Origin: Calditrichota bacterium
Lineage (GTDB): Bacteria; Calditrichota; Calditrichia; RBG-13-44-9; J042
DNA length: 19,184 nt
Direction of reading: 5' to 3'
NCBI GenBank assembly: GCA_013150955.1
Contig: JAADJD010000020.1
Coordinates: 206,071-225,254, forward strand
The translations under genes and the position numbers were made by a program. The notes under the pieces are model-generated. The model was given only the letters and a program-made list of their open reading frames with translations, was not told the origin of the DNA and did no database searches. Positions 1-18,862 of the stretch are shown here, piece by piece. The first letter of the stretch is position 1; each line of letters starts with the position of its first letter.

Positions 1-1079
1 GGCTTTTTGTGTTCAGCATTTTACTTATCGCATCATGTACGAAAAACACAACGGAGATTAATAAGAGATTTTCAATCACGGGGGTGGTTTATTATAATGG
101 TGTGCCCATACCAAATGCGGTCGTAATCCTTGATAATGACGAAAATTTTACTGTAGAAACGGGTGAAGATGGAACATTCATTTTAAATGATGTTCCAGCG
201 GGAAAACATTCGTTAACCATCAATAAAACATTTAAAGATGGAAGTTTTGTGGAGAAAAATATGGAACTTGCTGTAGAATCGGATATCACACTGGACAATT
301 TAACCCTCCCCAAAGCCGTTATTTTGCGTCCTCCAACAAACGTGACCGATAATTCGATGACTTTGAGCTGGACAAAAAGTGAAGAAAGCAATTTCCGTGA
401 ATATAAACTATACCGGCATATTACGTTTGGATTGGATGAAACCACGGGCACCCTTGTATACGTTGCGACTTCGGTGGATGATACCATTTTTACCGATCAG
501 AATTTGGATCCGTTAACGCCCTATTTTTATCGAGTATTTGTAATGAATGAATTTGGCCGGATAGGAGGAAGTAATATTGTCGGCGATACAACGATGAACC
601 GAAACTTCATCTGGAATGGGAATTTTGAGTTGCAAGACGATTTGTTGAACTGGTGGAATGGTTACGCCTATGGACAGGCTATCTATTCCGATAGTATACG
701 AAAAGAGGGAAATTATTCCCTTTTACTCATTGCAGACACCGTCAATGCGAATCCGCCGTATTTACTGGCTAACCTGAGTCACAATGACTTTCCCGGGCTT
801 GTTCCTAACAAGCAATATAAAATTTCATTCTGGGTAAAAACTGAGGGACCCGCAAGTGAATATGGTGGGGACTTTTGGGGTAAGCGGACTGAAAAAGCTG
901 GATTATTAGCGTACGATCACTTTGGAGTTTTGGGTATCCCAGAAAATACTGATTGGACATACATTGAAAAAACGTTCTATATCAGCGACCAAAATATTAA
1001 TTCTTTTAGTATTGACGTCCGGAGTTGTAGCAAATACGCCTGGTTTGATGACATTCGCCTAGAGATGGTTCCAGAGTAG
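1..1079 (+). CDS. Surface lipoprotein with regulatory-like, FN3 and CBM-like domains (5' end outside window)
   Basis: The reading frame is open to the left edge, so the true start and part of the signal peptide are missing. The first possible start inside the window is GTG at 9. Numbering from there, residues 2-10 end in a lipobox (I-A-S-C, Cys10), which predicts a lipid-anchored envelope protein. Residues about 22-95 look like a carboxypeptidase-regulatory-like beta sandwich (pattern GVVYYNGVPIPNAVV, then T-GEDGTF and VPAGKHSL). Residues about 107-195 fit a fibronectin type III domain (PPTNVTDNSMTLSW, then LTPYFYRVFVMNEFG). Residues about 200-356 resemble a CBM4/9-like jelly roll (NGNFEL start, YKISFWVKTEG). 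No catalytic motif is visible, so a role in binding polysaccharide or protein at the cell surface is inference. The codons are AT-richer than in the genes to the right. Confidence 0.8.
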   Translation, partial: LFVFSILLIASCTKNTTEINKRFSITGVVYYNGVPIPNAVVILDNDENFTVETGEDGTFILNDVPAGKHSLTINKTFKDGSFVEKNMELAVESDITLDNLTLPKAVILRPPTNVTDNSMTLSWTKSEESNFREYKLYRHITFGLDETTGTLVYVATSVDDTIFTDQNLDPLTPYFYRVFVMNEFGRIGGSNIVGDTTMNRNFIWNGNFELQDDLLNWWNGYAYGQAIYSDSIRKEGNYSLLLIADTVNANPPYLLANLSHNDFPGLVPNKQYKISFWVKTEGPASEYGGDFWGKRTEKAGLLAYDHFGVLGIPENTDWTYIEKTFYISDQNINSFSIDVRSCSKYAWFDDIRLEMVPE

Positions 1080-6499: not shown

Positions 6500-6889
6500 A
6501 TGAAGAAACAAAATGATAGCGAAAATATTATTTTGATTATCGAGGACGATTTTGACCTCATGTGGATGATCCACAAACTGCTGTCCACCAGTGGCTTTCA
6601 GGTTTTGACCGCAGTCACAGCCAGCCAGGCAATCGAAGTGTTTTCCCGATATATCTTTCAGATTTCAGCCGTGATTCTGGATCTTTCCCTGCCCGATAAG
6701 GATGGGGAGGAGGTTGCTGCCGAATTTCTAAAAGTCGTCCCGGACATCCCGATCATCATCACCACCGGATCGGAAGACCATGCGCAACGGGCTCGCCTGG
6801 AACGCATGGGGGTGGCCGCCTACCTCATCAAACCCTTTGATTTAACCGAGCTGGTTCAAACGATCGAGCGACTCATCCAACATGTTTAA
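6500..6889 (+). CDS. Single-domain response regulator (receiver only)
   Basis: This 129-aa CheY-like receiver has no output domain. The key residues are the acidic pocket at Glu15-Asp16-Asp17, the phospho-acceptor Asp61 in VILDLSLPDKDG, Thr88/Thr89 in IIITTGSED, and Lys111 in YLIKPFD. It would take a phosphate from a sensor kinase and act by protein contact. No histidine kinase is encoded in the window. The start is uncertain. ATG 6500 gives a normal receiver N-terminus, while an in-frame TTG at 6467 adds 11 residues; neither has a clear ribosome binding site. Its last 8 nt overlap the glycosyltransferase start, which points to translational coupling. Confidence 0.9.
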   Translation: MKKQNDSENIILIIEDDFDLMWMIHKLLSTSGFQVLTAVTASQAIEVFSRYIFQISAVILDLSLPDKDGEEVAAEFLKVVPDIPIIITTGSEDHAQRARLERMGVAAYLIKPFDLTELVQTIERLIQHV

Positions 6890-7955
6890 ATCACACACAA
6901 CGGATTCCCCACCCATTCGTCCCACACGAATTCTGGTTGTCCAAACCGCTTTTCTGGGAGATGTCATTCTAACCATTCCCTTACTCAAAGCACTTCATCG
7001 TGCCAATCCAGACGCCCGGCTGGACTTTCTTACCATCCCATCGTCCAGGAACCTGGTGGAAACCCTGCCCTACATTCATCGATTGTGGATTTACGACAAG
7101 CATGGCCGTGAGCGGGGAATTCGCTCGCTCTGGCGATTGGTTTCTCGGCTGCAGAAGGAGCATTTCGATCTGGCCCTGGTGCCCCATCGGTCTCTACGCA
7201 GTGCCCTGATGGTGGCCGCTGCTCGAATTCCCATGCGGGTGGGATTTCATAACAGCGCGGGAAAATGGTTGTTTACCCATCGGGTTCGGTACCGTCGGGG
7301 AATTCACGAAATAGACCGCAATCTGGAATTGCTTCAACCGGTGCTGGTGGATCGAGCGAAGCGAATTTTCCCGGAGATTTTTTTTACGGAAACGGATCAT
7401 CAGGTGGTGAATGCCTGGCTTGCGCAACAGCAAATATCGTTTGATCAGAACTGGATCACAATGGCGCCGGGATCGGTCTGGGCCACCAAACGATGGCCCC
7501 CGGAATATTATGCGGAGGTTGCCAGAAAACTTGCTGCGGAAAACGTGGGCACCATCTTAATCGGCGGAGAAGGCGATGCTCGTCTGGCGCAATGGATTGT
7601 CCAACGGGCGGGTGATCGGGTAAAAAACGCTGTGGGGAAATTTACCTTACGGCAGTCGGCTTTGATCATTCAAAAATCACGTTTGCTATTAACCAACGAT
7701 AGTGCTCCCCTGCATATGGGAGTGGCAGTAAACACACCGGTCATTTCCATTTTTGGCCCCACAGTCACCGAGTTCGGGTTTTACCCCTGCGGGCCACTGG
7801 ATGAAGTGATCGAAATTCCGGAACTGAAATGTCGACCCTGCGGTATTCATGGGGGACAGAAATGTCCCCTGGGTACCCATGAATGCATGAAACGCATTTT
7901 GCCGGATAGGGTATTTCAACGGGTCATGGAAAAATTGACTCAGATTTTGCATTAG
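6882..7955 (+). CDS. Glycosyltransferase family 9 (heptosyltransferase II-like)
   Basis: This 357-aa GT-B enzyme is of the ADP-heptose:LPS heptosyltransferase family. The N-terminal Rossmann half opens with RILVVQTAFLGDVILTIPLL (from 16). The C-terminal nucleotide-sugar half has MAPGSVWATKRWP (194-206), TILIGGEGD and the family motif TNDSAPLHMG (271-280), followed by PVISIFGPT. The tail carries four Cys (C317, C320, C328, C335), an arrangement seen in many WaaF-like proteins. It is expected at the cytoplasmic face of the inner membrane, adding heptose or a related sugar to LPS core or another glycan; the acceptor is not readable. ATG 6882 overlaps the preceding gene by 8 nt. The final codons and the TAG (7953-7955) lie inside the left end of a dispersed repeat, so the C-terminus may have been altered by its insertion. 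Confidence 0.9.
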   Translation: MFKSHTTDSPPIRPTRILVVQTAFLGDVILTIPLLKALHRANPDARLDFLTIPSSRNLVETLPYIHRLWIYDKHGRERGIRSLWRLVSRLQKEHFDLALVPHRSLRSALMVAAARIPMRVGFHNSAGKWLFTHRVRYRRGIHEIDRNLELLQPVLVDRAKRIFPEIFFTETDHQVVNAWLAQQQISFDQNWITMAPGSVWATKRWPPEYYAEVARKLAAENVGTILIGGEGDARLAQWIVQRAGDRVKNAVGKFTLRQSALIIQKSRLLLTNDSAPLHMGVAVNTPVISIFGPTVTEFGFYPCGPLDEVIEIPELKCRPCGIHGGQKCPLGTHECMKRILPDRVFQRVMEKLTQILH

Positions 7956-8102
7956 CCATGAATTACACGAATTAAAACGAATAAAAATAATAGAATCCAT
8001 TTGGATTAGATCTGAATAAAAATGTGATTCGGAGTTTATTCGCGATTTTGTGGATGTTTTTGGTTTCATTCAACAGATTCGCGGTTTAATGCATTAATTG
8101 GG
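7939..8102 (-). repeat. Dispersed palindromic element, copy A
   Basis: This is a roughly 164-bp copy of the family shared with 11812, 13416, 17901 and 18401. Its left arm (cagattttgcattag, then aattacacgaatta) and right arm (gattcgcggtttaatgcatt) are imperfect inverted repeats. Strand is given by the shared peptide reading, which here starts MKPKTSTKSRINSE on the minus strand from 8069. The left arm contributes the last codons and stop of the GT9 gene. Confidence 0.85.
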
Positions 8103-8111
8103 TTTATTGGT

Positions 8112-8158
8112 ATTTTGGGTTTCATTCGCGCAATTTACGGTTTGATGCGTAATATGGG
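8112..8158 (-). repeat. Half copy (right arm only) of the dispersed element, copy A'
   Basis: About 10 bp after copy A, a second right arm occurs alone (TTTCATTCGCGC, then ACGGTTTGATGCGTAATATGG). It lies directly upstream of the threonylcarbamoyl-AMP synthase start. Confidence 0.7.
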
Positions 8159-8191
8159 AGTAAGTCGGGTCTAAAATTTCAGGGATTGATG

Positions 8192-8842
8192 ATGAAGCGT
8201 TTTGTTGTGGATCAGAATCGTCCTCAGGAGGAAGCGATTCAGCAGGCGGCACAGGCATTGAAAAAAGGGGGCGTGGTGTTGCATCCCACAGAAACCGTGT
8301 ATGGCCTGGCGGCCGTCTTCGATGAACCCTCTGCATTACAGCGGGTGTTGCGTTTAAAAGGCCGGAGCGAACAGCAGCCTTTTTCGCTGATGGTGGATGA
8401 CATCTCGTGGATTTTGAATCTTTCGGGACAATCTGCACCGGAATGTAAGCGGTTTCTTGAGCGCGTGTTCCCCGCACCGCTGACCGTTTTGATTCCCCGC
8501 AAAAAGAAACTTGCAGCCGCCTACTGGAACCAGTTTGAATATCTGGGATTCCGGTTACCGGAGCATCCACTCAGTTTGCGATTGGTTCAGCGGGTTGGGA
8601 AGCCCATCATCACCACCAGCGCCAATCTGACGGGGCAGCCAGCGCCTTCGCGACCGAAGGAAATTGCTCCCGAAATTCGCGATGGAGTGGATGTGTTTCT
8701 GGATGGGGGCGAGACATCCTTCAAGATCCCATCGACGATTGTTAGAATTTCATGGGCGGATGGGCATATCGAATGCGTCCGTTCCGGGGCGGTACCTTTC
8801 GAAAATATTAAAACAATTTTTTTTGAAGAACTTGAAAACTAA
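8192..8842 (+). CDS. tsaC: L-threonylcarbamoyladenylate synthase (TsaC/Sua5/YrdC family)
   Basis: It makes threonylcarbamoyl-AMP from threonine, bicarbonate and ATP, the first step of the universal tRNA modification t6A37. The 216 aa cover the YrdC domain without the extra Sua5 C-terminal domain, so the protein is TsaC-sized. Motifs are PTETVYGLA (32-40), the KGR-x-x-x-QP loop (56-63), PLTVLIP, GFRLPEHP, PIITTSAN (138-145) and STIVR (181-185). Three candidate starts lie together (TTG 8186, ATG 8189, ATG 8192). AGGG at 8181-8184 suits 8192 best. The upstream region is a dispersed repeat and a half copy, so transcription must begin within or just after repeat DNA. The next gene follows after 59 nt. 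Confidence 0.92.
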   Translation: MKRFVVDQNRPQEEAIQQAAQALKKGGVVLHPTETVYGLAAVFDEPSALQRVLRLKGRSEQQPFSLMVDDISWILNLSGQSAPECKRFLERVFPAPLTVLIPRKKKLAAAYWNQFEYLGFRLPEHPLSLRLVQRVGKPIITTSANLTGQPAPSRPKEIAPEIRDGVDVFLDGGETSFKIPSTIVRISWADGHIECVRSGAVPFENIKTIFFEELEN

Positions 8843-8901
8843 ATTAGGCGGTCGAAAATAGGAGTGTTTTGGAACGAAAATGGTTAGGGGCGCGAAGATC
8901 G

Positions 8902-9411
8902 ATGTACAGGATATTGTTTGTTTGCACGGGAAATATTTGCCGCACGCCAATTGCCGAGGCCATTTTGCGGCGTTTTATTCATAAAGAAAAGCTGGAATCC
9001 ATCATGGATGTGGAATCGGCCGGTACCTGGGCCATTGATGGCAATCCGGTTTCGGAAAATACCCGCCTGGTTTGTCAGGAGCATGGTCTGGATGTATCTC
9101 ACCATCGGGCACGCCACATTGATCATTTCATGGTGAAGGAGGCAGATCTTATTCTGTGTATGGCGGAACAGCATAAACTGGATCTATTGACCATTTATCC
9201 CCATTTCCGGAATAAGATCTTTACCCTGAAAGAATTCATGGCCACAGAAAACCACCGCTCGCTGTCGGTAGACGATCCGTATGGACGCAATATCATGGCC
9301 TATCGGAAAACGTTTCAGGAAATTGAGCGAGAAATTCAAAGAATCTGGCCGGAATTAAAGGCACGGGCGTTGCAAAAAGCGCAGTATGTGGCAACCTCCT
9401 CCAATCAATAG
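8902..9411 (+). CDS. Low-molecular-weight protein tyrosine phosphatase (YwlE/Wzb-like)
   Basis: This intact 169-aa phosphatase has nucleophile Cys8 and Arg14 in [10 protein letters not shown], the SAGTWAIDG segment (39-47) and the general acid Asp125 in DDPYG. It removes phosphate from protein tyrosine or, in the YwlE branch, arginine. The residue after Asn11 is Ile, typical of tyrosine phosphatases, whereas YwlE has Thr there. [10 protein letters not shown] and NKIFTLKEF are otherwise YwlE-like. It follows the threonylcarbamoyl-AMP synthase, as ywlE is near ywlC in Bacillus subtilis. Start choice: ATG 8902 gives the usual N-terminus with a distant AGGGG at 8886. TTG 8869, with AGGAG 4 nt upstream, would add 11 residues and cannot be excluded. 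It converges with queC, and their ends overlap by 7 bp. Confidence 0.92.
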
Positions 9412-10112
9412 GTGTAAACCGGTCGTTCCCTGTAAGGGATGGGATCTTCCACGCCTAATTTTTGAAAGGCACGCAGGCGCAGTGCGCAGCTGTCGCAAAT
9501 CCCACAGGCAACATCTTCCCGCTGGTAACATGACCAGGTGAGATGCAGGGGGGCATGAAGCTCCAGGCCTTTCTGAACAATTTCAAATTTTTTCATGTGG
9601 ATGAGCGGGGTATGAATGGTTAGGTGAGTTTCCGGTCGAGTCCCCAGTTCAATGACCCGATTAAAGGCCTGAAAGAAGGGCAGGCGGCAATCCGGATATC
9701 CGGATGAATCCTCCTCCACTGCTCCAATAAAAATGGCGCGCGCCCCCAGAACTTCTCCCCAGCTAACCGCAATCGACAGTAAATGGGCATTTCGAAACGG
9801 TACGTAAGATGTGGGAATGTCCTGCGATTGCAAATTGGCCCGCGACACCGGAATGGTTTCGTCCGTTAAAGAGGAACCGCCAATTTTTTTCAAATGGGCC
9901 AGGGAGGTCACCAGTCGTCGGGATGGGGGGACTTTATAGTAATCGCAAATATCCTCAAATGCCTGCAATTCCCGTTTTTCCGTTCTCTGACCATAATTCA
10001 CGTGAAGCATGGCCAGTTCGTGGGTTTGGGCAGCGATGGCAGCCGTCACGCAGCTGTCCAATCCACCACTCACCAGTACCACTGCAAGGTCTCGCGATTT
10101 TTTTGCCGACAT
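9405..10112 (-). CDS. queC: QueC, 7-cyano-7-deazaguanine (preQ0) synthase
   Basis: It converts 7-carboxy-7-deazaguanine to preQ0 using ATP and ammonia. The 235-aa chain has the PP-loop SGGLDS (15-20), the HVNYGQRT segment (37-44), [11 protein letters not shown] and a zinc site of C195, C203, C206 and C209 in [18 protein letters not shown] 10112 is preceded on the minus strand by GAGGG at normal spacing. It is the last gene of queE-queD-queC, 33 nt after queD. No terminator separates it from the convergent phosphatase gene, whose last 7 bp it overlaps, so the two transcripts must run into each other or end inside coding DNA. Confidence 0.96.
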
Positions 10113-10145
10113 GGAACATCCCTCATTTTAACCATTCCATTTTAC

Positions 10146-10610
10146 TCATCCAGAGTAATCAGGATTCCCGGATTCTGGCCTGAGCGCCAGTGAGACTTCG
10201 GCGAACTCCTCCGGTGTTTCATACAAAAGGATGCGCAAAACATGCAGATTGGGGAAGGTTTCGAGAACCGGACGAATTCGCTGTGCAAAGTAATGGGCAA
10301 TGTTTTCCACGGTGGAGTGGAAATCAACAAAACAAACTTTCAGACCGGACTGTTTTAAAAAATCTCTGGCCAGTTCATCATCCTGCGAGCACATAAAAGC
10401 ATGATCCATCTCATCCACAATGGGTTGAATCAGATCCCGCAGATCGAAAAAATCGATGACCATGCCGTTGTCCTGAATTTCACCTTCCACCTCGACAATC
10501 ATTTTGTACGAATGCCCGTGAAAATTCTGACAGCCACTCTGATGATAGGGGATGCGATGCCCCATTTCCCAGCGAAACGTCTGCGCCACTCTGGCCAATC
10601 GCTTTGTCAT
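10146..10610 (-). CDS. queD: QueD, 6-carboxytetrahydropterin synthase
   Basis: It converts dihydroneopterin triphosphate to 6-carboxy-5,6,7,8-tetrahydropterin, the substrate for QueE. The 154 aa carry zinc ligands His18, His31 and His33 (MGHRIPY, FHGHSY), the catalytic Cys27 (SGCQNFHGH), MVIDFFDLRD (50-59), the Asp69-His70 pair (EMDHAF) and STVENIA (99-105). Start choice: ATG 10610 with AAGGG 8 nt upstream on the minus strand. Longer in-frame starts would run into queE in another frame and have no family support. It is 25 nt after queE and 33 nt before queC. No GTP cyclohydrolase (folE), which provides the upstream pterin, is in the window. Confidence 0.96.
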   Translation of the reverse strand: MTKRLARVAQTFRWEMGHRIPYHQSGCQNFHGHSYKMIVEVEGEIQDNGMVIDFFDLRDLIQPIVDEMDHAFMCSQDDELARDFLKQSGLKVCFVDFHSTVENIAHYFAQRIRPVLETFPNLHVLRILLYETPEEFAEVSLALRPESGNPDYSG

Positions 10611-10635
10611 GCCGTTGTCCCTTCTCCTGTTGAAG

Positions 10636-11343
10636 TTAAACGCCTCTCCGATTCGGATCCCAGATGTATTTGTGCAGTTGTAATTGAAATCGAATGTTGG
10701 GAAAGTTTGCCTGCAACCGATCCTCCAGCATCCAGGAAACCAGGGTAACGGGTTCCAGCCATTCAAACACCGGTGATAGCAGAATTGCATGGACTTTCTG
10801 GTGTAGGTTGTGGGTGCGGATGAAATCCTTTGCCCATTCGTAATCGTCCCGGTTGCCCACAACAAATTTTACTTCATCGTGAGGCAACAGGTAATTCACG
10901 TTTTCGATCAAATTCTTATGCACCATCTGGCTGGATGGGCATTTGAAATCCACAATTTTAATGACCCGCTGATCCACCCGTTGCAGCGAACGACTGCCGC
11001 CGGTTTCCAGCAGCACCTCGTAGTCCAGGTCGCAAAGCTGGCGCATGAGTGGAAATACGCCGGGCTGCAGGAGCGGTTCGCCACCGGTAATTTCTACCGT
11101 GCGGCAATTGTATTGCTTTATCCGTTCAAGAATCCCGGAAAGTGAAATGGGTTCTCCCTCATAAAATGCGTATGCGGTATCGCAATACACGCAGCGCAAA
11201 TTGCAGTAAGTTAAACGGACGAACACACACGGTTTGCCCGCGTGGGTGGACTCCCCCTGGATGCTGTAAAAAATCTCGTTGATCATCAGAGTCGACTCAT
11301 CGACTCTGGGTTTGACCCGGTGTTTTAAATGACGGGTTTGCAT
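10636..11343 (-). CDS. queE: QueE, 7-carboxy-7-deazaguanine synthase (radical SAM)
   Basis: This radical SAM enzyme rearranges 6-carboxytetrahydropterin to 7-carboxy-7-deazaguanine. Visible motifs are INEIFYSIQGES, the 4Fe-4S cluster motif C-x3-C-x2-C in TYCNLRCVYCDTAYAF, and EITGGEPLLQP, which binds SAM. VLLETGGS and VDFKCPSS follow. The start is not settled. ATG 11343 is annotated; TTG 11367 would add 8 residues. ATG 11286 gives the N-terminus closest to the family, with the first cluster Cys at residue 28. None has a good ribosome binding site. A perfect 9-bp hairpin (11287-11308) sits directly before ATG 11286. It heads the queE-queD-queC operon. Confidence 0.95.
   Translation of the reverse strand: MQTRHLKHRVKPRVDESTLMINEIFYSIQGESTHAGKPCVFVRLTYCNLRCVYCDTAYAFYEGEPISLSGILERIKQYNCRTVEITGGEPLLQPGVFPLMRQLCDLDYEVLLETGGSRSLQRVDQRVIKIVDFKCPSSQMVHKNLIENVNYLLPHDEVKFVVGNRDDYEWAKDFIRTHNLHQKVHAILLSPVFEWLEPVTLVSWMLEDRLQANFPNIRFQLQLHKYIWDPNRRGV
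11287..11308 (-). other. Perfect 9-bp hairpin at the queE start region
   Basis: CAGAGTCGA (11287-11295) pairs with 11300-11308 across a 4-nt loop. The stem ends one base before the internal ATG 11286. If translation starts there, the hairpin would cover the ribosome-binding region; if translation starts at 11343, it is only coding sequence. Confidence 0.4.
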
Positions 11344-11516
11344 TGGCTGCGAAAATTCTTTTTTCAAGTTTTATGCAATTATTTCCATTGTATAATCATG
11401 ATCCTAAGCGATACTTCAAGCATCCCGACCCATCCAACGGGCTAATTTAACCTTTTTTCGTTGGGGAAAGCAACCCGGAAAAGAAGCGACACTTTCGGTC
11501 TGGTTCACAAGCTCAA

Positions 11517-11672
11517 TCCAAATTATGCATCAAACGGCGAATCACGCGAGTGAATCTAAAACATCTCCACAAAATAGCGAACAGACACTGGGACGCATTT
11601 TTGTCCGGAATGCATTTTACGTTTTTTATTCGAGCGTATTCGTGTAATTCGTAGACGAATGCAACATGTGGG
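11517..11672 (+). repeat. Dispersed palindromic element, copy B' (inverted, diverged)
   Basis: It starts tccaaattatgcatcaaac and ends with cgtgtaattcgtag-acgaatgcaac, the reverse complement of the arms of the other copies. The peptide reading on the plus strand is STK-stop-R, later THF and IRVIRR, with an in-frame TAG and several changes. It faces copy B across about 140 bp. Confidence 0.75.
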
Positions 11673-11811
11673 GCAAATTCCCTTTGCAGGGAATGGTTGC
11701 TCCTGCAGACGAATGGGGATGATAAACCAGGTGCGGAAAAGAAGGTCTTGCTACGCAAGATGGAAATGGGCTTGCAGTAACCCGGATACAAATCTCCCAA
11801 TGCAAAAATTG
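11673..11811. other. Unassigned spacer between two inverted repeat copies
   Basis: There is no gene. Two small hairpins are visible: ATTCCC-tttgca-GGGAAT (11677-11694) and TCTTGC-tac-GCAAGA (11746-11760). No T-run follows either. Purpose unknown. The rest of the gap to queE (11344-11516) shows nothing certain. Confidence 0.4.
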
Positions 11812-11975
11812 AACCCAGATTAAGCATTAGACAACGAATTACACGAATTAACACAAATAAAATTAATTGAATAGCTTGAATTATATCTGGATGAAAATGT
11901 GTTTCGAGGTTCATTCGTGATTTGATTGATATTTTTGGTTTCATTCGCGCGATTTGCGGTTTAATGCATTTTTTG
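11812..11975 (-). repeat. Dispersed palindromic element, copy B
   Basis: Left arm aacccagattaagcattag then aattacacgaattaac; right arm ttcattcgcgcgatttgcgg then tttaatgcatt. The minus-strand peptide from 11944 is open (MKPKISIKSRMNLETHF, later LIRVIRCLMLNLG) and matches copy A residue by residue at most positions. Confidence 0.85.
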
Positions 11976-12014
11976 CATTAATTTTCACAAATGTTTGGAG
12001 AAACAAAATTCCAT

Positions 12015-12689
12015 TCAAAGGAGATGTGCCAGCTTTTGTTGAATAAATTGCCAGAAAATTTGTGCATTCTTCAAACTCATCTGCCAGCCTGCTTTCAAAA
12101 ATGCGTCGATTCCGGCTCCCCGAACCTCCAGTGCCGACAGGGTAAGCCCGATGAAGAACAGATTTCCCAGTAAGATGACAACCAGTGAAAAAATCACTCC
12201 CGTTGTTTGAATATCCGGCTGCGAGGGGTGCACCTCGGAAAACAAAGGAACAAGGTGAAACATCAGGAAAAATCCCAGAAGGAAGTTGAGCACATCATCG
12301 TAGTGAGGAACAATCAAAAATTTTAACAGGATGATGAACAGCACCGGTAGGGGAAAGATGTAGGGAGCCAGGGCGATAACAAAATTGCCGCCTTCTACGG
12401 TAACCTGTCCCCCGCGATTGCGAAAGGCATTCAACGATCGCACGCGCTTGAAAAAAAGCAGGGCAAAAACCGCATGGGTGAGCTCGTGTTCCACGATTGA
12501 CCAGAACGGAGCACGCCGGGAAAGATAAATCCGCCACAATAAACCGTAAACACCAACGCCTGCAAGAAACGGCCAGTTGGATTTCCAGCGGGAAAGAAAT
12601 GGAGGGATCAGCTCGATCAATGCCTGACCAAAACCACTCAATGCCACCAGCGCCGCAAAAAAGAACACGATCTTAACGAATCTTTCCAT
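12015..12689 (-). CDS. M50-like (S2P-type) membrane metalloprotease, putative
   Basis: This 224-aa membrane protein has about five to six hydrophobic segments (roughly 5-25, 38-55, 73-82, 104-127, 135-151 and 163-185). The HExxH zinc motif HELTH (68-72) lies at the start of the third segment, with Glu69 as the catalytic base. HPSQPDIQTTG (154-164) may give the third ligand (Asp159), as the later Asp does in site-2 proteases. That fits the M50B-like peptidases, which cleave inside membranes. There is no PDZ domain, and the substrate is unknown. ATG 12689 has a weak ribosome binding site. It is divergent from the DUF1232 gene with 57 bp between, so the pair may share a control region. No terminator is seen before repeat copy B. 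Confidence 0.7.
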   Translation of the reverse strand: MERFVKIVFFFAALVALSGFGQALIELIPPFLSRWKSNWPFLAGVGVYGLLWRIYLSRRAPFWSIVEHELTHAVFALLFFKRVRSLNAFRNRGGQVTVEGGNFVIALAPYIFPLPVLFIILLKFLIVPHYDDVLNFLLGFFLMFHLVPLFSEVHPSQPDIQTTGVIFSLVVILLGNLFFIGLTLSALEVRGAGIDAFLKAGWQMSLKNAQIFWQFIQQKLAHLL

Positions 12690-12746
12690 GAAAAATTGCT
12701 TTATCCGTATGAGCCTCTTATTTTTTATAGGTCAATTTAAAGGGCA

Positions 12747-13181
12747 GTGACTCCGAAAGTCCAGATGAAAATCGAGAATCTCCGGGAAGAATTCGAGAAA
12801 GTTAAGCAACGGGCAGATACCATTGCCAGGGAGGAACCGCGGCTGGAACACCTTATCCGGGAAGCTACTGAAAAGGCTCGCCGTCATCGGGATGAGCTGC
12901 AAAAATTATGGAGCAATCTCCAATGGCTGCTCCGGATGCTGGATGCTTATCGCAGGGGGCACTATCGGGAAGTTCCCTGGCGGGTCATCCTGTATGCGGC
13001 AGCGGCCATTTTGTATTTCTTGAATCCCATGGATCTGGTACCGGACTTTTTAACCGGCATCGGTTTTGTGGACGATGCCACCGTGCTGGCACTGGTGGTA
13101 AAGGCCATTCACGACGAACTGGAGCGGTTTAAACAGTGGTATACCCGGCAAAGTACGGCTGCCAGAAAACCCACCGACTGA
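12747..13181 (+). CDS. DUF1232 (YkvA-like) membrane protein with N-terminal coiled coil
   Basis: This 144-aa protein begins with a highly charged helix (about 5-60, MKIENLREEFEKVKQRADTI onward). It then has the DUF1232 signature at about 78-118: RVILYAAAAILYFLNPMDLV, then PDF-x-GIGF-x-DDATV. The family is a short hydrophobic hairpin of unknown function, often in the inner membrane. The N-terminal coiled coil is longer than the minimal family and suggests oligomers. The start is uncertain. GTG 12747 is annotated because it is the longest; its AAAGGG is only about 2 nt upstream. ATG 12765 is a good alternative. It is divergent from the M50-like gene, and no terminator is certain after the stop. 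Confidence 0.8.
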   Translation: MTPKVQMKIENLREEFEKVKQRADTIAREEPRLEHLIREATEKARRHRDELQKLWSNLQWLLRMLDAYRRGHYREVPWRVILYAAAAILYFLNPMDLVPDFLTGIGFVDDATVLALVVKAIHDELERFKQWYTRQSTAARKPTD

Positions 13182-13415
13182 ATGTCTAAGCTGTTGAGCA
13201 TCTTCAAAACGCGTATTTTACAGTTCCCTGTCAAAGAATTTCCGGGCAAAGGAAATTGTGAAAAGGCATTTTTTTGATTTTTTCAAACAGATCGATCGGT
13301 CTCATCGCTTTCACCTGACCATTTTGTGAACAGATAGAGGATGCACCGCACAATAGCCCGTTAACCTGAATTTACCCAAAAGGATTCTTTTTGCGAAATT
13401 AAACCGGCATAAATG

Positions 13416-13582
13416 AACCCAGATTAAGCAATAGCCTACGAATGACACGAATGAACACAAATAAAACCAATAAAATACATTGGATTGTGTCTGAATGAAA
13501 ATGTGTTTCAGGGTTTATTCGAGATTTTGTAGATATTTTTTGGTTTCATTCGCGTGATTCGCGGTTTATTGCATAATTTGGG
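13416..13582 (-). repeat. Dispersed palindromic element, copy C
   Basis: A full 167-bp copy. The outer arms are strongly complementary: aacccagattaagcaatag at the left, and gcggtttattgcataatttg at the right. About 30 of the outer 38 positions pair, by eye. The minus-strand peptide (MKPK, then a shift, then RINPETHFHSD and FIRVIRRLLLNLG) is broken by one extra base in an A/T run. Its first 110 bp are nearly identical to copy D at 17901. Confidence 0.88.
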
Positions 13583-13666
13583 ATGAATCCATCCCGGAAA
13601 GATGTGACCTGAAATTGTATGGAAATGACAATTTTTGCCCCGATTAAAAATGGCCACCTCTTTTTC

Positions 13667-13695
13667 TTGAATTCCATCCTGATTTCGCTTATCTT
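13667..13695 (+). promoter_or_regulatory. Candidate sigma-70-type promoter of the molybdenum hydroxylase operon
   Basis: TTGAAT (13667-13672) and TATCTT (13690-13695), each four of six, are separated by 17 bp. Transcription would start near 13703, 38 nt before ATG 13741, just after repeat copy C. Confidence 0.4.
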
Positions 13696-13740
13696 CCGGT
13701 TAGATTGAACGTGGTATTCAAAAGAGGAGGCCTGATTGAC

Positions 13741-14373
13741 ATGCCTGTAAAAAAGGGATCATCGGGAATATCCCGCCGGGATTTTTTAAAGGGAATGGGA
13801 ACCACCATTTTGAGCACCGCGGTCGTCACCGGTGGTGGGCTGGTGCCGGACAGTGCCACGGCAGCCTTACTGGACGACACGGTTGAGACCATTTCGGGCA
13901 GGGTGAAAATATCCCTTCGGGTCAACCATAAGGTCTATTCCGTTGCGGTGGAACCACGAACCACGTTGCTGGAGGTTTTGCGGGAACGGCTGGGACTGAC
14001 CGGTGCCAAACCGGCCTGTAATCGCGGAGAATGCGGTGCCTGTACGGTTCTGGTGGATAATCAACCCATGCTGGCCTGCAGCCTGCTGGCGGTAGATGTT
14101 CGCGATGCAGACATAATCACTGTGGAAGGATTGTCCACAGACGACACCCTCACTGCTGTCCAGAAAGCCTTCGTGGAAAAGGATGGGTTGATGTGCGGCT
14201 TCTGCACACCGGGATTTGTGGTCGCTGCAACGGCACTTCTCCAGAAAAATCCCAATCCCAGTTTGTCCGAAATTAAACAGGGATTATCTGGAAACCTCTG
14301 CCGTTGCGCAGCCTATCCTAAAATTTTTGAAGCTGTTCAACAAGCAGCCAGAACGATGCAAAGGGGGAAATAA
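13741..14373 (+). CDS. Tat-exported 2Fe-2S subunit of a molybdenum hydroxylase
   Basis: This 210-aa small subunit of the xanthine dehydrogenase/aldehyde oxidase family carries two 2Fe-2S clusters. The N-terminus has a twin-arginine signal (SRRDFLKGMG, 11-20, then a hydrophobic stretch and an Ala-rich end near 42), so the enzyme should work outside the cytoplasm. Cluster ligands are C93, C98, C101 and C113 in the ferredoxin-like domain, and C152, C155, C187 and C189 in the helical domain (MCGFCTPG, NLCRCAAYP). It passes electrons between the molybdenum site and FAD or an outside acceptor. AGAGGAGG at 13722-13730 lies 10 nt before ATG 13741. The small-subunit Tat signal is as in E. coli PaoA. 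The Mo subunit starts 3 nt after its stop. Confidence 0.94.
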   Translation: MPVKKGSSGISRRDFLKGMGTTILSTAVVTGGGLVPDSATAALLDDTVETISGRVKISLRVNHKVYSVAVEPRTTLLEVLRERLGLTGAKPACNRGECGACTVLVDNQPMLACSLLAVDVRDADIITVEGLSTDDTLTAVQKAFVEKDGLMCGFCTPGFVVAATALLQKNPNPSLSEIKQGLSGNLCRCAAYPKIFEAVQQAARTMQRGK

Positions 14374-14376
14374 GCG

Positions 14377-16491
14377 ATGGCCAAATGGAAATCTTTAAAC
14401 GAGATGAAAATTCTGAGTTCTTACTATCCCCGTCTGGACGCACCATTGAAAGTTCAGGGCAAGGCCAGATATATTTATGACATTTCTTTACCGGGCATGC
14501 TTTATGGCGCCATCTTAACCTCGCCGTATCCCTCCGCAAAAATCATTCGCATAGACGATTCTCGTGTACGCAAACATCCGGGTGTGCGTGCGGTATTAAC
14601 TGATGTACATCCGACGGGACGCATTCGTTACGCCGGGGAAGAGGTGGCAGCGGTAGCCGCCACCAGCCCGGAAGCCCTTCAGGAAGCCCTGGAATTGTTC
14701 CAGGTTGAATATGAGGTGCTTCCGTTTGTGGTGGATCTGGAAGCAGCCATGGATGAAAAAGCGCCCCGGGTTTTTTCCGATCGTCCGAATGTCCGAAAAC
14801 CCCGAGAGAGGGAAGAGGGCGATATTGAAAAAGGATTTGCCGAAGCCGATGTGGTGGTAGAGCGGGAGTTCCGCACCCAGGTGCAGGTACATGTTCCGCT
14901 GGAACCGCACGGGAGTGTGGTGACCTGGGAAGGCGATCAGTTGATCATTTACGACTCTACCCAGGCAGTTCACGGTGTCCGCGAAGGCGTTGCCAAAGCC
15001 CTGGATATTCCCGTATCCCGCGTGCGGGTCATTTGTGAACACATGGGAGGTGGATTTGGAAGCAAATTATGGGCCGGGCGTTACACGGCCATCGCCGCGC
15101 GATTGTCCCGTCAGGCCGGGGCTCCCGTCAAATTAATGCTCACCCGCAAACAGGACTTTCTGGGCGCCGGAAATCGTCCCAATAGCGTGCAGAAAATCAA
15201 AATGGGTGCCCGTAAGGATGGTACTCTGGTGGCCTTTTATGCCGAAACTTACGGGACTGCGGGAATTGCCACTAACGCCAATGTGCGATTGCCTTTTATT
15301 TATCAGGTACCCAACTGGAAGCATATTCATCGGGACGTCTTTATCAATGCAGGGGGTGGGCGTCCCTTTCGGGCGCCGGGATGTCCGCAGGCCTCCTTTT
15401 CTATGGAACAGATGATGGATGAGCTGGCCGAAAAGCTGGGCATGGATCCGCTGGAATTCCGCCTGAAGAACGATCCCAATACCACCCGGCAAAAGGAATG
15501 GCGCATCGGTGCGGAAAAAATTGGCTGGTCTCGTCGGCGGAAAGCTCCGGGAAGTGATCCAGGCCCGGTGAAACGCGGTCTGGGGATGGCCGCCAGCATC
15601 TGGTGGCCGGGAGGACGAGGCACAAAGGCCAGCATGACTATTTATCCTGATGGTTCCGTGGAAGTCCGCTGCGGAACCCAGGACATCGGCACCGGTACCC
15701 GAACCCTTGTGGCCAGTGTGGCTGCCGAGGAACTGGGAATCGATATGAGATGGATTCGGCCACTCATTGGAGACTCCAACTACCCCTATTCCGGTGCTTC
15801 AGGAGGAAGTACCACCGCGCCTTCGGTTGGACCGGCGATTAAAAATACTGCCGAGAAGGCCAGAGCGGCTCTTCTGGAACGCGTGGCCCGGAATCTGGGC
15901 CTGGCACCTGAAAAACTGACCTGGCAGGCAGGCAGCATTCGCATCACCGGCAGCCAGAGCCAGCAATTGTCCTGGAAGGAAATTTGCCAACACCTGGAAA
16001 ATGAACCGCTGGAAGTGCATGGTGAATGGGTGAAGGGACTCTCTTCCGCTGGTGTGGCCGGATGCCAGTTTGTGGAAGTGGCCGTGGATACCGAGACGGG
16101 GCAGATCCAGGTTGAAAAAGTAGTCGCCGTTGCCGACTGTGGCCTGGTTTTGAATCGTTTAACGACGGAAAACCAGATCAACGGCGGCATTCTGCAGGGA
16201 ATTAGTTACGCCTTGCTGGAAGAACGGTATATGGATCCCACAACCGGTACCATGGTCAATCCCAATTACGAAAGCTACAAAATACTGGGCGCCATGGAGA
16301 CGCCAGAAATAGAAATCATTCTTTATGATGAACCGGAACGCGGGGTCATTGGAATAGGTGAACCCCCGACCATTCCCACCGCCGCCGCTATTGCCAATGC
16401 GGTGTACCATGCCATTGGCGTGCGGTTGCGGGAACTTCCCATGACGCCCGATCGGGTGCTGAATGCATTGTATCAGGAAAAGAAAGTGTAA
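14377..16491 (+). CDS. Molybdopterin-binding catalytic subunit of a molybdenum hydroxylase
   Basis: This 704-aa large subunit binds the molybdenum cofactor and hydroxylates the substrate using water. Visible are the start of the a/b hammerhead (PRLDAPLKVQGKARYIYDIS), YDSTQAVHGVR, the HMGGGFGSK loop, FRAPGCPQASFSME and a GTQDIGTGTRT loop. The catalytic Glu662 is in GVIGIGEPPTIPT. It has no signal peptide and would be carried across the membrane folded with the Tat-bearing small subunit. By similarity of plan it is closest to periplasmic aldehyde oxidoreductases (PaoC type). The substrate cannot be named from the sequence; aldehydes or N-heterocycles are possible. AAAGGGGGAAA at the end of the upstream gene serves as ribosome binding site. 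No XdhC/PaoD-type cofactor chaperone is encoded in the window. Confidence 0.93.
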   Translation: MAKWKSLNEMKILSSYYPRLDAPLKVQGKARYIYDISLPGMLYGAILTSPYPSAKIIRIDDSRVRKHPGVRAVLTDVHPTGRIRYAGEEVAAVAATSPEALQEALELFQVEYEVLPFVVDLEAAMDEKAPRVFSDRPNVRKPREREEGDIEKGFAEADVVVEREFRTQVQVHVPLEPHGSVVTWEGDQLIIYDSTQAVHGVREGVAKALDIPVSRVRVICEHMGGGFGSKLWAGRYTAIAARLSRQAGAPVKLMLTRKQDFLGAGNRPNSVQKIKMGARKDGTLVAFYAETYGTAGIATNANVRLPFIYQVPNWKHIHRDVFINAGGGRPFRAPGCPQASFSMEQMMDELAEKLGMDPLEFRLKNDPNTTRQKEWRIGAEKIGWSRRRKAPGSDPGPVKRGLGMAASIWWPGGRGTKASMTIYPDGSVEVRCGTQDIGTGTRTLVASVAAEELGIDMRWIRPLIGDSNYPYSGASGGSTTAPSVGPAIKNTAEKARAALLERVARNLGLAPEKLTWQAGSIRITGSQSQQLSWKEICQHLENEPLEVHGEWVKGLSSAGVAGCQFVEVAVDTETGQIQVEKVVAVADCGLVLNRLTTENQINGGILQGISYALLEERYMDPTTGTMVNPNYESYKILGAMETPEIEIILYDEPERGVIGIGEPPTIPTAAAIANAVYHAIGVRLRELPMTPDRVLNALYQEKKV

Positions 16492-16503
16492 CAGGAGGCC
16501 GAT

Positions 16504-17484
16504 ATGTTCCCCTTTGAATACATCAACGTGCGGGAATTGACCGCATTACCGGATTACCTGGAAAAGGACGGAGAAAAAAGTGCTATTCTGGCCGGTGGCA
16601 CGGATTTACTGGGATTAATGAAAGAAGGCCTGTTAAAACCCCGGAAGGTGGTCAATATCAAGCAGATCAGGGAACTGCGGGGAATCCGGGATACCCGTAA
16701 GGGGCTGGAAATTGGCGCCGCGACCCGCCTTTCGGAAATTGAACAACATCCTATAATTCAGCAGCAATACCCGGTTCTGGCCCAGGCCGTAGCCTCGATT
16801 GCCACCCCTCAGTTGCGGAATATGGGGACAATCGGGGGTAACCTTTGTCAGCGTCCCCGCTGCTGGTATTTTCGCGGTCAGGAATATCATTGCCTGAAAA
16901 AAGGCGGCGACATGTGTTACGCCGTGGATGGGCTCAATAAGTATCACGCCATTTTGGGCGGAGGGCCTTGCTACATTGTTCATCCCTCGGACGCCGCACC
17001 GGCGTTAATTGCCTTGGGCGCCACCGTGGAAATCTTTGGCCCACAGGGAAAACGAACCGTACCGCTGGAAGAATTCTTCCAGCTGCCGGAAGACAATCTC
17101 TTACGGGAAAATATACTGGCTCCCAACGAAGTGGTTACCCGCATCTTCGTCCCCAGGCCGGAAGCAGAAACCCGATCCCTTTATCTCAAATTTCGGGAAC
17201 GTCAGTCCATGGATTTCGCCATTACCAGTGTAGCGGCTTTAGTACAGTTGCGGAACGGAAAAGTCCAGAAAGCGCGACTGGTTTTGGGGGGTGTGGCTCC
17301 CATCCCCTGGCGGGCACGGGAAGCCGAAAAAATTCTGGAAGGGAATTCCCTTTCCGCCGACCGCATTCAACAGGCGGCAGAGGCGGCCTTAAAAGAGGCA
17401 GATCCACTGGATCAAAACGCTTACAAAGTTATTCTTGCTCGTAATTTGATCCGGAAAGCGTTTACCCAACTTCAAAATGCCTGA
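16504..17484 (+). CDS. FAD-binding subunit with a probable 4Fe-4S cluster
   Basis: This 326-aa medium subunit has the FAD signatures AILAGGTDLLGLMKEG (27-42) and ATPQLRNMGTIGGNL (100-114), and a CO-dehydrogenase-flavoprotein C-terminal domain (about 220-326, LVLGGVAPIPWRA). Inserted after the second signature are four cysteines (C115, C120, C130, C138: CQRPRCWYFRGQEYHC, then MC). That position matches the extra 4Fe-4S cluster in PaoB and in 4-hydroxybenzoyl-CoA reductase beta. The HPSDAAPALIAL segment (161-172) follows. The subunit accepts electrons from the 2Fe-2S protein and hands them to an unknown partner. AGGAGG at 16493-16498 precedes ATG 16504, 12 nt after the Mo subunit. It has no signal peptide. 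Confidence 0.93.
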   Translation: MFPFEYINVRELTALPDYLEKDGEKSAILAGGTDLLGLMKEGLLKPRKVVNIKQIRELRGIRDTRKGLEIGAATRLSEIEQHPIIQQQYPVLAQAVASIATPQLRNMGTIGGNLCQRPRCWYFRGQEYHCLKKGGDMCYAVDGLNKYHAILGGGPCYIVHPSDAAPALIALGATVEIFGPQGKRTVPLEEFFQLPEDNLLRENILAPNEVVTRIFVPRPEAETRSLYLKFRERQSMDFAITSVAALVQLRNGKVQKARLVLGGVAPIPWRAREAEKILEGNSLSADRIQQAAEAALKEADPLDQNAYKVILARNLIRKAFTQLQNA

Positions 17485-17504
17485 AAAAAAGCACGAGGTG
17501 CCCT

Positions 17505-17786
17505 ATGCGATACATAAAAAATCCAGAGCATCCCAATATCCCGATCTGCAAATATTTAAGGGCAAAGGCCAGTTACGTGCCCGATATGCAAAATGAACAT
17601 TACATGGAGATTCATTATCCATACGATCAGTTTTATTGTCTGAAAACCCTTCACAATGTCGGGCCGGACGATGATGTGGTTTGTCCAGAAGATTGTTTAC
17701 CTCAGCGAGCTTGCTATGAGCCCCTGCGGGTTCCCACATTATTTGCTGAGGGGAATGATGGCGGTACCGGTTCAGAAAAAACGTAA
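17505..17786 (+). CDS. Small Cys-rich protein, fourth gene of the molybdenum hydroxylase operon
   Basis: I do not recognise this 93-aa protein. It has five cysteines (C15, C45, C60, C64, C70), three of them close together in VVCPEDCLPQRACYE, many Tyr and Pro, and an acidic C-terminal tail. It has no signal peptide or membrane segment. GAGGTG (17495-17500) lies 4 nt before ATG 17505, the gap from the FAD subunit is 20 nt, and the operon terminator comes 84 nt after the stop; together these support a real gene. The Cys pattern could bind zinc or an Fe-S cluster. It could serve as a maturation factor or electron carrier for the enzyme; this is inference from position. An overlapping minus-strand frame looks like a shadow. 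Confidence 0.68.
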   Translation: MRYIKNPEHPNIPICKYLRAKASYVPDMQNEHYMEIHYPYDQFYCLKTLHNVGPDDDVVCPEDCLPQRACYEPLRVPTLFAEGNDGGTGSEKT

Positions 17787-17870
17787 GGAAATCGGGGTGC
17801 GCCATATTTAAGTTTCTGGCAGCGGTTTTAAAAAGTTGAATGATTTGCATATCAGACGGCATTTCTTGTC

Positions 17871-17900
17871 TCCCGGTGGAATAAACACCGGGATTTTTTT
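17871..17900 (+). terminator. Intrinsic terminator of the molybdenum hydroxylase operon
   Basis: TCCCGGTG (17871-17878) pairs perfectly with CACCGGGA (17886-17893) around a 7-nt loop, followed by seven T (17894-17900). Repeat copy D begins at the next base. Confidence 0.93.
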
Positions 17901-18067
17901 AACCCAAATTATGCAATAGCCTACGAATTACACGAATTAACACCAATAAAACCAATAAAATACATTGAATTGTGTCTGGATGAAAATGTGTTTCAGGGTT
18001 TATTCGCGATGTTGTGGATACGTTTAGGATTCATTCGATTGATTCGCGGTGGAATGCATGATTGGGG
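17901..18067 (-). repeat. Dispersed palindromic element, copy D
   Basis: A full 167-bp copy beginning at aacccaaattatgcaatag and ending near ggaatgcatgattgggg. It abuts the operon terminator. The minus-strand reading has a frame break near the start, then RINPETHFHPDTIQ and LIRVIRRLLHNLG. It is closest to copy C. Confidence 0.88.
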
Positions 18068-18082
18068 ATTGATGGAATCATT

Positions 18083-18172
18083 AAAAAGGTACATATGTTT
18101 TGCCAAAAAGATACGTATGTTTTGATCAAAAGATATATATGTTTTGTGAAAAAGATACGTATGTTTTTCACC
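18083..18172. repeat. Four tandem 21-24-bp units with palindromic cores
   Basis: The units are 18083-18104, 18105-18127, 18128-18148 and 18149-18172. Each reads roughly AAAAAGATACGTATGTTTTG plus 2-4 variable bases. The cores are self-complementary (CATATG, ATACGTAT, ATATATAT, ATACGTAT). Spacing near two helical turns resembles binding-site arrays or iterons. No replication or regulatory gene is next to it. Confidence 0.8.
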
Positions 18173-18400
18173 AAATATCTAATTGCCCTCAGCAGTTTTC
18201 AGTTTGCAGCATGTATTCCAGCACACAGTGTGCAGTTGGCATTGGTGGGCTCAGGCTTTATGCCTACGGTATTTTTTTAACAGATGCAACAATTGGCAAA
18301 TTAATCCTGCGGCGAAGCTGGAGGACTACAGAATCAGATAGTCGGGCTAAAATTTGTAACCCCGCTCTCTGAGCGGGTGCGAGCGACAGCGAGCTATTAA
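18173..18400. other. Gene-free mosaic with hairpins
   Basis: Contains GCACAC-a-GTGTGC (18221-18233) and a 7-bp stem CCCGCTC-tct-GAGCGGG (18361-18377), followed by gcgagcgacagcgagc. The translated frames through here have no family features. It may be decayed mobile DNA; there is no direct evidence. Confidence 0.4.
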
Positions 18401-18535
18401 AACCACGAATTAGACGAATGAACATAAATAAAAATAAGAATATTATTAGATGAAAATTTGTTTTGGGGATTATTCGCGATGTTGTGGATATGCCTTGGGT
18501 TCTTTGCATGATTCGTGGTTTGCTGCATTATTGGA
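18401..18535 (-). repeat. Dispersed palindromic element, copy E (left end truncated)
   Basis: Shares aaccacgaatta, tagatgaaaat, tattcgcgatgttgtggata (also exactly in copy D) and gattcgtggtttgctgcatta. The outermost left arm is missing. The minus-strand peptide reads GISTTSRIIPKTNFH, then FMFIRLIRGF. Confidence 0.75.
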
Positions 18536-18862
18536 GATTAATATTAACGCATGGCTTTTCAGCCAGGAGAATGGATAACGTAACAGATTAATGATTAAAC
18601 ACACAATTATCAGAGATCCAATAAGGGGATCAGGTATTTTACCTCAAAGGCAGGCATACTTCCCTGGCAGATAAAATATCTTAAGCAATAATATTAAAGC
18701 ATCTGAAAAATGTCGTAGAAAAACAGCAACTTCACACGCTTTTCAATTAAACATGTTCTTCCCGATCCGATTCCTGCCGTGCAACCCAAGAAACCTGCGG
18801 ACAACTTTCGAAATTTTTGAGATATCGATTCAATAATAACAATGACTTACGAAAAATAACTG
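18536..18862. other. Gene-free AT-rich stretch
   Basis: I see no supported gene, RNA or site here. It separates the repeat nest from the AT-rich minus-strand gene. Confidence 0.5.

Follow-up and report, generated by a model that had tools for sequence, protein, structure and literature searches.

The window analyzed here, a 19,184-nucleotide stretch of a Calditrichota bacterium genome (contig JAADJD010000020.1, G000:C29:206071-225254), carries six copies and one partial copy of a palindromic repeat of approximately 165 bp. We identified this repeat as a miniature inverted-repeat transposable element (MITE), most likely mobilized in trans by a transposase of the IS1380 family of insertion sequences (IS), a reading to which we assign a probability of about 0.88. 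The assignment is based on 5-bp target-site duplications, on insertions of the element into itself, on its absence from matching loci of a relative and on the presence of an IS with nearly identical ends elsewhere in the genome.

A repeat family with the marks of transposition

Copies were detected with nhmmer using one profile hidden Markov model (HMM) of 168 positions built from copies of the repeat. The sample comprised 1.855 Mb from 19 contigs, corresponding to 45.6% of the 4.07-Mb draft genome of the source organism (G000). The sampled stretches came mostly from contigs with prior matches, and since the density was fairly even (2.8-4.7 matches per 10 kb in individual contigs) the resulting bias should be small. 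The profile returned 1,233 raw matches, reduced to 618 non-redundant matches of which 317 were full-length, while the reversed sequence of the same sample gave 0 matches with the same model. The family was thus not limited to the window, where an earlier sequence-only reading had described it and proposed a genome search for further copies. The elements accounted for 4.16% of the sampled bases and, extrapolating by proportion, the whole genome should contain about 700 full-length and about 1,350 total copies. Their G+C content was 35%, compared with 50% for the sample, and the mean pairwise identity between copies was 79%, a few pairs reaching 97-99%. No match to the element consensus occurred in plasmid and phage collections.

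The consensus, of about 165 bp, runs from CCCAGATTATGCATTAG to TTTAATGCATTATTTGGG (left CCCAGATTATGCATTAGCCTACGAATTACACGAATTAACAC..., right ...GTTTCATTCGCGTGATTCGCGGTTTAATGCATTATTTGGG), with CCCAGATTATGCATTAG and CCCAAATAATGCATTAA as matching inverted ends. It is gene-free and shows a terminal inverted repeat of about 17 bp (CCCARATWATGCATTA), with longer imperfect sub-terminal arms inside. Inward of the terminal repeat, the arms carry ACGAAT words with a spacing of 9-10 bp; the alignment bins that contain these words were the best conserved (0.94), and the least conserved ones (0.78-0.79) fell in the core.

Analysis of the flanks of 339 end pairs revealed a target-site duplication of 5 bp with the consensus WTWAW. 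The duplication was exact in 115 of the 339 pairs, against 26 expected and a maximum of 44 in 1,000 shuffles. The second (T) and fourth (A) bases were almost fixed, and concordance beyond the shuffles was found at positions 1, 3 and 5. Moreover, 19 full-length copies were nested within other copies. For the 18 with definable ends, deletion of the insert together with one duplication restored a single host element in every case (83-140 bits), and ten of them displayed an exact 5-bp duplication. The host motifs TTTAT and ATAAA were hit recurrently. In nested inserts sharing one orientation with respect to the host, the flanking bases varied with the target, which supports a duplication of 5 bp and not of 3 bp.

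A genome of the same genus (G001) shows synteny across the window with a DNA identity of roughly 73%, and none of copies 1-4 (listed below) was found at the matching loci. The only trace of the family in this relative was one hybrid copy, in which the ends match, the core is unrelated and ATAAT stands on both flanks. In this copy (L032:1240-1550, G001:C15) the MITE arms surround a core that resembles a different repeat (CACAAAGACTCG...CTTTGTGCC), as though insertion of one repeat into another, or replacement of its core, had taken place. Among 16 genomes of the order the family was present in numbers only in the source genome, the simplest reading being a large expansion within that lineage. 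The target-site duplications and empty sites that the sequence-only reading had suggested looking for were found, the latter as restorable nested insertions and as absence from orthologous loci, and together with the IS ends described below they bear out its proposal of a non-autonomous, MITE-like element.

To find an autonomous internal version, the sampled 45.6% of the genome was searched for pairs of ends no more than 4.5 kb apart that carry the same duplication; the pairs retrieved enclosed ordinary-looking genes or nested copies. A self-BLAST for long repeats returned mainly local tandem or array repeats and no obvious IS.

A probable IS1380 partner and the identity of the helper

A candidate partner with matching ends, of the sort that the sequence-only reading had proposed looking for, was found elsewhere in the genome in an IS1380-family element. 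One of the DDE transposases of the genome lies at the beginning of contig C18, and an end matching the MITE was located some 300 bp past the point where its assembled open frame starts. The protein (P0001) scored 219 bits against the NCBIfam IS1380 model (cut-off 180) and 139.8 bits against Pfam PF13701. The ends of the IS (CCCAGATTACGC...) read CCCAGATTACGCATTAGA and CCCAGATTACGCAATAGA and are identical to the MITE left end at 16 of 18 and 15 of 18 positions, respectively. The contigs break inside the IS: identical right ends terminate C27, C13 and C21, and left ends terminate C14, C12, C19, C44 and C35. The flanks of these junctions were mostly TTAAA, TTTAA or ATTAT, i.e., the MITE target type. 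No IS1380 match was found in genomes G001, G002 and G003.

The same combination of ends and target recurs in other phyla. IS1380 relatives with 46-62% protein identity, from delta-proteobacteria, Nitrospirota, Nitrosomonas, Betaproteobacteria and others, have CCCAGATTNNNCATTA-type ends, and most of them are flanked by exact 5-bp WTNAW duplications (for instance ATTAT, ATTAA, TTCAA, TTCAT and ATAAA). IS1380-type ends and a 5-bp WTNAW target are thus common to the MITE and to IS1380 elements elsewhere. Among characterized members of the family, IS1247 carries repeats of 16 bp and duplicates 5 bp (PMC3281130), and ISEcp1 has the left repeat CCTAGATTCTACGT and generates 5-bp duplications (PMC7864471, PMC2887853). 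Judging from these ends and targets, an IS1380-family DDE transposase would recognize the MITE ends in trans and insert the element at WTWAW sites, duplicating 5 bp; we infer that the enzyme that moved the MITE came from this IS family and not from elsewhere.

Several observations weigh against this reading. The orthologous sites in the same-genus genome are too diverged to give base-exact empty sites, which come from nested insertions only. The C18 junction, one of the five right-end junctions, has the flank AATCT, outside the target motif. The sole assembled transposase gene (L164:3-1257, minus strand) is frameshifted close to its N-terminus, where it falls into two frames at about residue 66 of the family model, owing either to a real lesion or to an assembly error; the remaining copies of the IS are collapsed where contigs end, which makes an intact gene uncertain. 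In addition, the similarity between MITE and IS is confined to the terminal 17 bp or so, and the MITE is therefore not just a copy of the IS that lost its interior. Lastly, the end of a second IS fits the MITE right end better, leaving the exact helper uncertain.

This last point leads to the best surviving alternative, namely that the repeat is a MITE amplified by a different helper, either the second IS (end CCCAAATAATGCATTAGAGCG) or an IS1380-like element since lost, so that the assembled IS would be no more than a relative of the true helper. We consider this a serious contender, at somewhat under even odds. The CCCAAATAATGCATTAGAGCG end and the right end of the MITE are the same over 16 bp, and the former occurs at the termini of three contigs, flanked by TTGAA, TTAAA and ATAAA. 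Furthermore, 288 full copies of the MITE were diverged from their consensus by 13% on average and none by less than about 5.7%, whereas the assembled IS copies were identical at their ends; most of the amplification does not, on this divergence, look recent. Against this alternative, the second IS lacks an assembled body from which a family could be assigned. Both candidate helpers also share the type of end and target, so a change of helper would alter the identity of the enzyme but not the mechanism. Only 204 bp of the second IS were assembled (L062:1-204, L309 and L310), showing the end CCCAAATAATGCATTAGAGCGTACTCCCCC and a hairpin, CCTCTGACA...TGTCAGAGG, just inside.

As a separate observation on the IS1380 element, one of its left ends splits a Cas1 gene after about 66 codons (L177, G000:C12:1-1531, positions 65-304, minus strand; Pfam Cas_Cas1, 53 bits). 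The IS appears to have broken a gene for CRISPR (clustered regularly interspaced short palindromic repeats) adaptation.

Alternative functions, host genes and the origin of the interior

The sequence-only reading had left room for structured-RNA repeats. We regard it as very improbable that the repeats are conserved structured RNAs or regulatory elements retained for function at gene ends. The consensus does form a long hairpin (-56 kcal/mol on one strand, -42 kcal/mol on the other) and, on crude gene calls, copies lie nearer to stops, 49 of 330 being within 20 bp of a stop compared with 13 of 268 within 20 bp of a start. On the same calls, copies are densest between convergent genes (1.62 per kb) and sparsest between divergent ones (0.72 per kb). 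Pairing across the 288 copies was nevertheless no better preserved than in shuffled controls (0.8594 against 0.8587), and double compensating changes showed no excess (126 against 134), leaving no covariation to back the RNA option. The hairpin is stable, yet there is no sign of the RNA structure being maintained. Orientation relative to tandem genes had no clear bias (99 against 89), an Rfam search of the window gave no match, and the target-site duplications and nested insertions indicate transposition. A scan for sigma-70 promoters and terminators returned weak consensus matches only and was not used.

The midpoint of the element fell inside a gene in just 3 of 317 full-length copies, again on crude gene calls. 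This scarcity, like the low density between divergent genes, probably reflects selection against gene- or promoter-breaking insertions, although target preference may contribute.

That the repeats are repetitive extragenic palindromic (REP) sequences moved by a Y1-type REP-associated tyrosine transposase (RAYT) would suit their palindromic, intergenic and very numerous copies and the two Y1_Tnp genes of the genome, but it is the least probable reading of all and was rejected, given the 5-bp duplications and the location of the better Y1 gene, which is flanked not by the MITE but by an unrelated, GC-rich repeat array in which these ends are missing. To our knowledge, target-site duplications are not expected of Y1 transposases. 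The array itself, at L091 (G000:C35:3403-6744), is a dense run of GC-rich palindromes (CCCCACGCGNTGCGTGGGG, TCCTTCGGACAAAA) enclosing the Y1_Tnp (RAYT-like) gene, and is likely to be a REP/RAYT system in its own right.

With the repeat taken as an IS1380-mobilized MITE, we examined where its interior may have come from. Of 40 genomes examined from the phylum, 6 carried the arm pattern CNACGAATTNCACGAATTNNCACGAATA and none its reversed control. Other genomes of the phylum contain short palindromes with CCACGAATTNCACGAATTNNCACGAAT arms, which share the sub-terminal arm motif of the MITE; unlike the MITE, the copies of the CCACGAAT...CACGAAT motif inspected in G016, G024, G014 and G009 were without IS1380 ends. 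Several of the copies in G016 were palindromes of about 85-95 bp. A tentative and rather unlikely explanation is that the MITE is a chimera, in which IS1380 ends captured a pre-existing phylum palindrome with CCACGAAT-CACGAAT-CACGAAT arms. IS1380 elements are reported to use alternative right ends and to carry off adjacent DNA (PMC9330008, PMC7864471), which offers a possible route to such a chimera. Were it true, a low-copy repeat would have become a transposon occupying 4% of one genome. Text searches of the literature on the arm motif found no paper. Other members of the class (L036, L037, L038 and L041) carry similarly planned palindromes made of other words (CCACAGAGA..., CTCCGTGTTCCCGGTGG, CTTCGTGTAATTCGTGTAATTCGTGG), one of which, in L038, is enclosed by different inverted ends, CTGTTGCAGATT.

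Comparison with known elements and copies in the window

The MITE shares with IS1380-family elements (ISEcp1, IS1247, ISPme1) the CCYAGATT-type terminal repeats of 14-16 bp and the 5-bp target duplication, but it measures about 165 bp and has no transposase gene, while the IS are of about 1.0-1.7 kb. Like Correia/CREE, Chunjie, ERIC and MITEAba12, it is short, gene-free, bounded by inverted repeats, mostly intergenic and present in high copy. MITEs with IS partners are well known, and nested insertion has also been reported for small pneumococcal repeats (PMC10969869). What sets the present family apart from other bacterial MITEs is its IS1380 partner and 5-bp WTWAW target; the term IS1380 was not found in that review (PMC10969869), and in the literature searched, with partial coverage, we found no description of an IS1380-linked MITE. 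As for load, 711 ERIC copies are cited for Photorhabdus and shares of up to 2% are quoted for bacterial genomes (PMC3281130), compared with about 700 full-length copies and 4.2% here, about twice the quoted 2%. The MITE is thus of a known kind; the family itself appears to be new, and the load it reaches is unusually high. The eukaryotic piggyBac elements likewise have CCC-type ends and a TTAA-like target, with a 4-bp TTAA duplication in place of the 5-bp WTWAW of the bacterial MITE. IS1380 has been used as an outgroup to piggyBac (PMC10813416).

These results connect the IS1380 family, which spreads beta-lactamase genes through ISEcp1, with a bacterial MITE of very high abundance, and provide a defined end sequence and target. 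The genome also represents a natural case for asking what MITE load a bacterium tolerates.

Within the window, the single profile HMM recovered all six copies and the partial one at the places where the sequence-only reading had put them, with the architecture it had described, i.e., imperfect inverted-repeat arms (about 40-48 bp) flanking a less symmetric core. The features are as follows.

7939..8102, plus strand: MITE copy 1 (nhmmer match 7939-8104, 107 bits; bounds from sequence; left end degenerate, CTCAGATTTTGCATTAG)
8103..8158, plus strand: right portion of an older copy, the probable host of copy 1 (nhmmer match of 25 bits, model 110-166; starts TTTAT)
11517..11673, minus strand: MITE copy 2, inverted (nhmmer match 11517-11672, 95 bits; bounds from sequence)
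11814..11977, plus strand: MITE copy 3 (nhmmer match 11812-11975, 124 bits; left flank TTGAA; right end degenerate)
13413..13417, no strand: target-site duplication ATGAA, left of copy 4 (exact 5 bp)
13418..13582, plus strand: MITE copy 4 (nhmmer match 13416-13584, 149 bits; 165 bp; CCCAGATTAAGCAATAG to TTTATTGCATAATTTGGG)
13583..13587, no strand: target-site duplication ATGAA, right of copy 4 (exact 5 bp)
17903..18067, plus strand: MITE copy 5 (nhmmer match 17901-18069, 131 bits; flanks TTTAA left and ATTGA right, an inexact duplication)
18403..18535, plus strand: MITE copy 6 (nhmmer match 18400-18536, 66 bits, model 19-166; left terminal 17 bp or so missing)

Copy 4 is the best preserved in the window. 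Inspection of the window genes agreed with the earlier statement that no transposase is present, and the copies do generally lie between genes as had been claimed; the exception is copy 1, whose left end (7939-7955) is inside the glycosyltransferase-9 gene 6882-7955 and supplies its last codons and TAG stop. The segment 8103-8158, previously described as a lone right arm, is probably the right portion of an older host copy that received copy 1, because it begins with TTTAT, a common site of nested insertion; against this, the left portion of the presumed older copy is not visible. Finally, a tandem repeat with a unit of 22 bp (AAAAGATACGTATGTTTTGATC type) occurs in four copies at 18084-18171, shortly past copy 5.

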